From Notolepis coatsorum (taxonomy: Eukaryota; Chordata; Actinopteri; Aulopiformes; Paralepididae), in contig OZ020589.1 of NCBI GenBank assembly GCA_963971535.1, positions 79,914,878 to 79,978,877 of the forward strand: DNA of 64,000 bases, read 5' to 3'. The notes under the pieces are model-generated. The model was not told where the DNA came from, made no database searches, and was given only the letters and a program-made list of their open reading frames with translations. Below, piece after piece: positions 6,201-9,200 of the stretch. Each line of letters starts with the position of its first letter. Within the stretch, counting starts at the first letter, position 1. Position numbers and translations under genes: made by a program.

Positions 6201-9200
6201 TATGGTGTTGATTTTATGCAGTACAAATGATTAAGTAAACAACTGAATCCTGTCTTTTAGATAATAAGATGTTTAGGAAGACAGGTTACGGGAACTCATT
6301 TTAATTGAAAGTGAGAAACACGTGGATTCACCACTGTATTATGAGATGAAAGTACTAACAGTATCCATGTGTCTGTAGGTGCGGGACTACTCTGGTTCCT
6401 ACACTGTGTTATTAAAGATGAAAGTACTAACAGTATCCATGTGTCTGTAGGTGCGGGACTACTCTGGTTCCTACACTGTGTTATTAAAGATGAAAGTACT
6501 AACAGTATCCATGTGTCTGTAGGTGCGGGACTACTCTGGTTCCTACACTGTGTTAATAAAGATGAAAGTACTAACAGTATCCATGTGTTTGTAGGTGCGG
6601 GACTACTCTGGTTCCTACACTGTGTTATTAAAGATGAAAGTACTAACAGTATCCATGTGTCTGTAGGTGCGGGACTACTCTGGTTCCTACACTGTTATTA
6701 AAGATGAAAGTACTAACAGTATCCATGTGTCTCTAGGTGCGGGACTACTCTGGTTCCTACACTGTGTTATTAAAGATGAAAGTACTAACAGTATCCATGT
6801 GTCTGTAGGTGCGGGACTACTCTGGTTCCTACACTGTGTTATTAAAGATGAAAGTACTAACAGTATCCATGTGTCTGTAGGTGCGGGACTACTCTGGTTC
6901 CTACACTGTGTTATTAAAGATGAAAGTACTAACAGTATCCATGTGTCTGTAGGTGCGGGACTACTCTGGTTCCTACACTGTTATTAAAGATGAAAGTACT
7001 AACAGTATCCATGTGTCTCTAGGTGCGGGACTACTCTGGTTCCTACACTGTGTTATTAAAGATGAAAGTACTAACAGTATCCATGTGTCTCTAGGTGCGG
7101 GACTACTCTGGTTCCTACACTGTGTTATTAAAGATGAAAGTACTAACAGTATCCATGTGTCTGTAGGTGCGGGACTACTCTGGTTCCTACACTGTGTTAT
7201 TAAAGATGAAAGTACTAACAGTATCCATGTGTCTGTAGGTGCGGGACTACTCTGGTTCCTACACTGTGTTATTAAAGATGAAAGTACTAACAGTATCCAT
7301 GTGTCTGTAGGTGCGGGACTACTCTGGTTCCTACACTGTTATTAAAGATGAAAGTACTAACAGTATCCATGTGTCTCTAGGTGCGGGACTACTCTGGTTC
7401 CTACACTGTGTTATTAAAGATGAAAGTACTAACAGTATCCATGTGTCTCTAGGTGCGGGACTACTCTGGTTCCTACACTGTGTTATTAAAGATGAAAGTA
7501 CTAACAGTATCCATGTGTCTGTAGGTGCGGGACTACTCTGGTTCCTACACTGTGTTATTAAAGATGAAAGTACTAACAGTATCCATGTGTCTCTAGGTGC
7601 GGGACTACTCTGGTTCCTACACTGTTATTAAAGATGAAAGTACTAACAGTATCCATGTGTCTCTAGGTGCGGGACTACTCTGGTTCCTACACTGTGTTAT
7701 TAAAGATGAAAGTACTAACAGTATCCATGTGTCTGTAGGTGCGGGACTACTCTGGTTCCTACACTGTGTTATTAAAGATGAAAGTACTAACAGTATCCAT
7801 GTGTCTGTAGGTGCGGGACTACTCTGGTTCCTACACTGTTATTAAAGATGAAAGTACTAACAGTATCCATGTGTCTGTAGGTGCGGGACTACTCTGGTTC
7901 CTACACTGTGTTATTAAAGATGAAAGTACTAACAGTATCCATGTGTCTGTAGGTGCGGGACTACTCTGGTTCCTACACTGTGTTATTAAAGATGAAAGTA
8001 CTAACAGTATCCATGTGTCTGTAGGTGCGGGACTACTCTGGTTCCTACACTGTGTTATTAAAGATGAAAGTACTAACAGTATCCATGTGTCTGTAGGTGC
8101 GGGACTACTCTGGTTCCTACACTGTGTTATTAAAGATGAAAGTACTAACAGTATCCATGTGTCTGTAGGTGCGGGACTACTCTGGTTCCTACACTGTGTT
8201 ATTAAAGATGCAAGTACTAACAGTATCCATGTGTCTCTAGGTGCGGGACTACTCTGGTTCCTACACTGTGTTATTAAAGATGAAAGTACTAACAGTATCC
8301 ATGTGTCTGTAGGTGCGGGACTACTCTGGTTCCTACACTGTGTTATTAAAGATGAAAGTACTAACAGTATCCATGTGTCTGTAGGTGCGGGACTACTCTG
8401 GTTCCTACACTGTTATTAAAGATGAAAGTACTAACAGTATCCATGTGTCTGTAGGTGCGGGACTACTCTGGTTCCTACACTGTGTTATTAAAGATGAAAG
8501 TACTAACAGTATCCATGTGTCTGTAGGTGCGGGACTACTCTGGTTCCTACACTGTGTTATTAAAGATGAAAGTACTAACAGTATCCATGTGTCTGTAGGT
8601 GCGGGACTACTCTGGTTCCTACACTGTGTTATTAAAGATGAAAGTACTAACAGTATCCATGTGTATGTAGGTGCGGGACTACTCTGGTTCCTACACTGTG
8701 TTATTAAAGATGAAAGTACTAACAGTATCCATGTGTCTGTAGGTGCGGGACTACTCTGGTTCCTACACTGTTATTAAAGATGAAAGTACTAACAGTATCC
8801 ATGTGTCTCTAGGTGCGGGACTACTCTGGTTCCTACACTGTGTTATTAAAGATGAAAGTACTAACAGTATCCATGTGTCTCTAGGTGCGGGACTACTCTG
8901 GCACCTACACTGTGAAGCTGACTCCCTGCAGCGCCGCTCCCAGTGGGGAGTTCACCATCCCCCCTGTCTGTCACCCCAGAGAGCCTCTCACCTTCGACAT
9001 GGACATACGCTTCCAGCAGGTCAGCAGCTCACATTCCCACTGAAGAAGTCTGAAACACTGATAATATGAAGGGTTTCGTGGCACAGTGCTATGTACTATT
9101 TGTCTATATATAAATAGTTATGTACATTCGTACAAATGCAATATTAACAAATGTAGCCTATAATCCAGAGATGATACTTTTTTGTAGTGAATACTTTGGG

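Follow-up and report, generated by a model that had tools for sequence, protein, structure and literature searches.

A boundary-spanning minisatellite with 36 copies of a 3′ splice site in a likely frem3 gene of Notolepis coatsorum

Introduction

Which 3′ splice site is used when an exon is preceded by 35 near-copies of its own acceptor, and does the length of such an array matter for the gene? This question is raised by a locus of Notolepis coatsorum (assembly GCA_963971535.1, contig OZ020589.1, positions 79,914,878-79,978,877, forward strand). The stretch analyzed, referred to as the window, comprises 64,000 nt of one haplotype, and all positions below are counted within it. The original prediction described the repeat as decoy 3′ splice sites copied from one frem3 exon. 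The decoys were proposed to compete with the real site, and the array length to tune the output of the gene. Here, the anatomy of the array, the strength of its splice signals, and the reading frames that follow from each acceptor were analyzed and compared with known repeats of this kind.

Results

Gene Model and Genomic Context

On the plus strand, ten exons join into a single open frame of 687 residues, with a transmembrane-like segment (judged by eye) and a stop codon at its end. The exon limits of this gene were placed from the reading frame and the splice signals (Table 1). The array lies in the 5258-nt intron in front of exon E6 (8885-9019), and the intron that follows E6 measures 255 nt. 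A Pfam search of the 687-residue translation gave no match above the cut-off. Three minus-strand open reading frames were also submitted to Pfam. Helicase C and SNF2 domains were recognized in two of them (34942-35283 and 55730-56086), and the one at 33406-33762 had no Pfam match. For the SNF2 piece, the top match among solved structures was a SMARCA protein, followed by ISWI proteins. Pieces of an SNF2/ISWI-type ATPase gene are seen at 34942-56086 on the minus strand, tail to tail with the ten-exon gene. This neighbor and the C-terminal transmembrane-like segment agree with what we take to be the FREM3-SMARCA5 neighborhood. The gene name frem3, given in the original prediction, is likely but not proven.

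Table 1. Coordinates of the exons around the array and of the parts of the array (a slash marks a splice boundary)
Feature	Position	Strand	Remarks
Upstream exon E5	3499-3626	+	phase 0 end, donor GCT/GTGAGT
Left array edge	6332-6378	+	original intron 3′ end: CACTGT, TACTAAC, first AG
35 units	6379-8884	+	GTGCGG at start; TACTAAC and AG at end
Parental exonic segment	8885-8914	+	first 30 coding bases of E6
Real exon E6	8885-9019	+	135 nt, donor CAG/GTCAGC
E7-E10, last four exons	9275-11549	+	transmembrane-like segment, stop codon at end

Six of the ten exons start at an AG/GT boundary (79, 2266, 2632, 8885, 9275, and 10971). The exon start at 79 (AAG/GTATGT) scored 9.68 as a donor with an approximate matrix, exceeding all but one of the gene's nine real donors, and may be a dual-specific or recursive site. 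Because AG/GT starts are common in the gene, the dual site at the start of E6 is probably a by-product of the first codon of the exon.

Several other elements were observed in the window. A non-autonomous insertion, presumably hAT-like, occupies 3849-4627 of the array-bearing intron; it has the ends GGGCTGCAAC and GTTGCAGCCC, near-matching 8-bp flanks, and (AAT)72 inside. The non-autonomous element at 4660-6069, which we take to be piggyBac-like, carries TTAA at both ends and the imperfect inverted ends CACTTTGAGTGCC and GGCATCGAAAGTG, and it stops about 260 bp before the array. On the minus strand, a transposase-like relic at 57707-58333 is presumably of the Tc1 type. A second minisatellite at 22710-22887, with 11.6 copies of a unit of about 16 bp (GGTGGGACAGAGTCAA), lies near no exon identified. 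A 93-bp unit stands twice, head to tail and without differences, at 20162-20349; the pair is open in one frame and is perhaps a young duplication. No tRNA was found in the window, and Rfam gave no match there at the gathering score.

Anatomy of the Array

The array (6332-8914) contains 36 acceptor copies, i.e., 35 extra copies and the real one at 8885. The first exonic bases of the copies run from 6379 to 8885, and of the 35 intervals between them 28 measure 72 bp and 7 measure 70 bp, in agreement with the count in the original prediction. TRF reported 35.9 copies with 98% matches at a score of 4932, so a chance origin is out of the question and the claim that the repeat is not random intron DNA was confirmed. 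The presence of GTGCGG in all 36 copies is built in, since the word used to search for the copies contained it. An independent search for TACTAAC alone gave 36 hits in the array, one per acceptor, and the distance from the branch A to the end of the acceptor AG was always 20 nt. Outside 6320-8930, neither strand of the window shared a 14-mer with the commonest unit.

The start of the exon had been described as copied 35 times together with its branch point and acceptor AG. All three parts are present 35-fold, but the exonic part, compared by eye with the first 30 bases of E6, is identical at only 28 of 30 positions in the 72-bp units and at 27 of 30 in the 70-bp units. All 35 copies read GGTTCC where the real exon has GGCACC. 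From TACTAAC to the 17th exonic base inclusive, 9 of the 35 decoys are identical to the real site; the remaining ones differ mainly at base −4 from the exon.

Seven unit types occur in mixed order among the 35 units, the commonest accounting for 21 of them. The types are distinguished by CTG or CTC ahead of TAG, by a TG that closes the exonic part in some units and is missing in others, and by four single changes, which fall in units B, F, and G. Apart from this terminal TG, no difference between copies was seen within the exonic part; with about six events in all, this uniformity does not speak for purifying selection on it. A higher-order repeat of unit types was considered and rejected: the longest repeated mixed run was 6, a value reached by 1872 of 10,000 shuffles. 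Types C and D were adjacent 3 times, a number reached by 66 of 10,000 shuffles, which is a weak signal that was chosen after looking. RNA structure that hides the copies was rejected as well, because one and two units folded no better than shuffled sequences (z values of 0.80 and 0.24).

As in mirage minisatellites, the tandem unit spans an intron-exon boundary, placed here by the frame and the splice signals, and the copies carry AG and GT signals: the 36 acceptors were located with a word that holds AGGT, and each is paired with a separately found TACTAAC. As in dual-specific arrays, AGGT stands at each repeat boundary, and by the approximate donor matrix the repeat should be able to act as an intron.

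The founder unit was probably a 70-bp stretch, made up of the intron 3′ end and about the first 30 coding bases, that was tandemly duplicated via CACTGT microhomology. This motif is present at the left array edge in the intron (6332) and at the end of the exonic part in the exon (8908). In a single-copy ancestor the distance from CACTGT to CACTGT would be 70 bp, which matches the short unit. In-register homology of at least 6 nt was obtained in 0.1% of 20,000 random breakpoint pairs. The sequence fits a duplication by microhomology, a TG slip that lengthened the unit from 70 to 72 bp, and an expansion from one GGTTCC founder.

Splice Site Strength and Reading Frames

Donors and acceptors were scored with approximate matrices (a vertebrate matrix for the donors). 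As acceptors, 33 of the 35 decoys scored 5.9 or 6.31; the other two reached 6.53 and 4.27. At 6.31, the real E6 acceptor had the lowest score among the ten acceptors of the gene. Judged by strength alone, the decoys would be expected to compete with it.

All 36 acceptors were translated after one-step splicing from 3626. From 28 of them, the TAG of the next copy was reached after 23 codons. Six shifted the frame and ended in TATTAA after 82-202 codons, and acceptor 8743 led out of frame through the real exon to a stop after 94 codons. Only 8885 gave the correct protein, so the frame arithmetic of the original prediction holds. The original interpretation was supported in part: the elements of a 3′ splice site are present in the copies, their scores resemble that of the real site, and one-step use of 35 of the 36 acceptors is unproductive. 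Use of the upstream acceptors would generate exons of 207, 277, 349, and so on up to 2641 nt, compared with 135 nt from the real acceptor.

The original prediction had missed a potential donor role of the repeat. Since the copies start with AG/GTGCGG, each unit is also a potential complete intron of 70-72 nt. As a donor, the copy boundary TAG/GTGCGG scored 6.39, above four of the nine real donors of the gene; the donors of E5 and E6 scored 5.77 and 7.06. In the window, 2.3% of the GT sites outscored AG/GTGCGG, and the next best GT inside the unit reached 2.74. When E5 was joined to a decoy, the regenerated donor GCT/GTGCGG scored 1.24. Collapse from any copy to the last acceptor restored the reference protein in 36 of 36 cases, which is true by construction. 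When blocks of units were retained before the jump to the last acceptor, neither the protein nor the C-terminal segment in frame was obtained in any of 630 combinations.

Rules of Acceptor Choice

The consequences of different rules for acceptor choice were followed in a toy calculation with assumed parameters, which serves as illustration rather than evidence. Under equal competition, 35 decoys left 2.8% correct mRNA, with a big drop caused by the first copies. Under a first-come rule, the correct fraction fell steadily with array length, to 70, 17, or 0% at 35 copies for p values of 0.01, 0.05, or 0.2. Under exon definition, the curve flattened by about 3 to 20 copies, at 63, 38, or 21%, depending on the assumed decay; only the last copies compete in this version of the model, so further array length hardly matters. 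With 90% rescue, the correct fraction stayed near 0.90.

Published data on site choice bear on these rules. According to excerpts of PMC9225289, long flanking introns favor the sites closest across the exon, the long-short class resembles exon definition for 3′ sites, and smaller exons are preferred, the last point being derived from 5′ site data. In the same excerpts, the upstream 3′ site is preferred overall, and this preference is significantly reduced, but not reversed, for long-long introns. The limit between short and long introns is set there at 250 nt; the downstream intron of the array gene, with 255 nt, lies on this limit.

Discussion

The array is probably a mirage-type minisatellite that is largely tolerated through a preference for the short exon and scarless removal of units. 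In this explanation, the observed anatomy, signals, and frames are combined with a proposed origin, splicing route, and tolerance. A 70-bp stretch spanning the boundary would have been duplicated and then expanded to 35 copies. Together with the downstream donor, the real acceptor would define the shortest exon (135 nt). The boundary AG/GTGCGG could serve as acceptor or as donor, and blocks of whole units would leave as introns of 70-72 nt or multiples thereof, which would restore the normal boundary. Some stop-containing, unproductive RNA would leak. Because the donor regenerated on joining E5 to a decoy is weak (1.24), rescue would mostly take place before this joining, and recursive splicing after exon joining was rejected as the main route. 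An intron of 72 nt is near the minimum size, which counts against removal of the units in this way.

Tolerance is also opposed by the upstream preference for 3′ sites (excerpts of PMC9225289) and, within the model, by the first-come rule, which at p 0.05 would leave 17% correct mRNA at 35 copies. The amphioxus RT-PCR data discussed below come from another animal with fewer copies, and not all known mirage copies have AG and GT. A stronger form of the proposal would make the array self-erasing: with 36 dual sites and 35 potential mini-introns, the spliceosome would collapse an array of any length to the normal boundary. We regard this form as tentative and rather doubtful.

The explanations weighed here do not exclude each other, and a mirage minisatellite could also tune. 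Tuning of frem3 output, in which a longer array would yield more degraded stop-containing RNA and less protein, is possible but was not supported by the analysis, and we consider it unlikely. In its favor are the 35 acceptors, whose matrix scores are close to that of the real site and none of which is productive in one step, the overall upstream preference for 3′ sites (excerpts of PMC9225289), and the transcription of the array before the real acceptor; in the toy model, a first-come rule lowers output with length. However, the model gives a plateau in about 3 to 20 copies under exon definition and an early drop under equal competition, the dual sites permit scarless repair, and amphioxus mirages are reported as harmless in excerpts of PMC3087553. 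The last observation, together with the real exon being the shortest, would also suit an inert array, in which the real acceptor is used almost exclusively and both competition and scarless removal are negligible. Since the decoys equal or nearly equal the real site, such complete neglect would need exon definition alone to suffice, and an inert array is quite improbable.

Capture of splicing by the array might instead have produced a null or near-null allele for which the other allele or paralogues compensate. The toy model would allow this at 35 copies, with 2.8% correct mRNA under equal competition and 0.0 under the first-come rule at p 0.2. However, no decay is visible, as the ten exons in the window can be joined in one open frame and their splice sites can be scored, and intronic arrays of such a kind are tolerated in amphioxus (excerpts of PMC3087553); a null allele is therefore very unlikely. 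Much the same low probability is given to an artefact of assembly or a wrongly assembled array length. A 2.5-kb array with 98% matches is hard to assemble, and the amphioxus BflGb6 mirage array appears to be aberrantly assembled in the draft, according to PMC3087553 in excerpt. Against an artefact stand the seven unit types in mixed order, the proper flanks on both sides, and the occurrence of this kind of array elsewhere.

Arrays that span a splice boundary are already known, and among the systems compared here the amphioxus mirages come closest. Amphioxus mirage minisatellites were reportedly the subject of work by Canestro and colleagues in 2002. The BflGb6 mirage, as described in excerpts of PMC3087553, shares with the present array the minisatellite-like tandem copying of the 3′ end of an intron together with the 5′ portion of the exon that follows, many AG and GT signals, and repeat turnover. 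It has 6 and 3 units of 150-160 bp with 81-100% identity, whereas 35 units of 70-72 bp with 98% matches are found here; the Adh3 mirage units measure 10-72 bp. Each unit of the present array carries branch point, AG, and GT, but not all known mirage copies have AG and GT. According to the excerpts, regular splicing does not seem to be disturbed, judging by the Adh3 data and globin RT-PCR, and instability of mirage length is reported, even somatic at Adh3.

Dual-specific repeats offer a second comparison. In human UBC, AGGT sites with dual specificity form a tandem array, and its units are spliced stochastically; across human tandem repeats, introns that comprise a whole number of units are reported to be 8.4-fold enriched (excerpts of PMC10809524). 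Human UBC and VCX3A share with the present array an AGGT at every repeat boundary and the possibility that an intron comprises a whole number of units. A retained UBC unit, being coding, leaves the frame intact, whereas retained blocks bring a stop or a frameshift here (0 of 630). The present unit differs further in its derivation from a true branch point and acceptor. An AG directly adjoining a GT is also a feature of the ratchet points of recursive splicing, which are described, in the portion of that literature drawn on here, from long introns; in the present array there are 36 in succession, spaced by 70-72 nt, and joining E5 to a decoy leaves a weak donor.

The human IFI6 (6-16) minisatellite is said, in work by Turri and colleagues in 1995, to supply several splice donor sites. 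It sits on a splice site like the present array, but on the donor side, and several of its copies are used (cited in PMC4526556, in excerpt). In potato, an intron of RdRp was gained by tandem duplication across an intron-exon boundary, and its splicing was shown by RNA-Seq (excerpts of PMC4974935). In both cases, the parent intron supplies the acceptor, the branch site, and the tract, and the exonic part supplies the donor. A single duplication with a cryptic GTAAG donor within the exonic part was involved in potato, compared with 35 copies here whose donor is the first six exon bases. In human segmental duplications, internal tandem repeats, mainly minisatellites, change exon-intron structure and in some cases create new introns (excerpts of PMC2812944). 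These repeats, with an average of four 30-bp units, are said to activate cryptic splice sites, and in the cases described in those excerpts no parent acceptor was copied. A minisatellite at a transcription start (PMC3039753, in excerpt) was set aside as irrelevant to the array.

The kind of array is thus already known, and its size and uniformity stand out, with 35 units that hold all intron signals. A search of one open-access collection returned no paper with both frem3 and minisatellite; as the literature search was limited to that collection, no claim is made that the array is the first in a vertebrate.

The locus is an unusually large and uniform natural test of acceptor choice by the spliceosome where dozens of sites are nearly equal. 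The rules at stake are first come, exon definition, and repair by re-splicing, and the unit variants (CTG or CTC before TAG, 70 or 72 bp) could tag which copies get used. The array is also a possible snapshot of intron birth through tandem duplication. If it were self-erasing, its copy number could drift freely although every retained unit spoils the message, and splicing itself would let the minisatellite expand.
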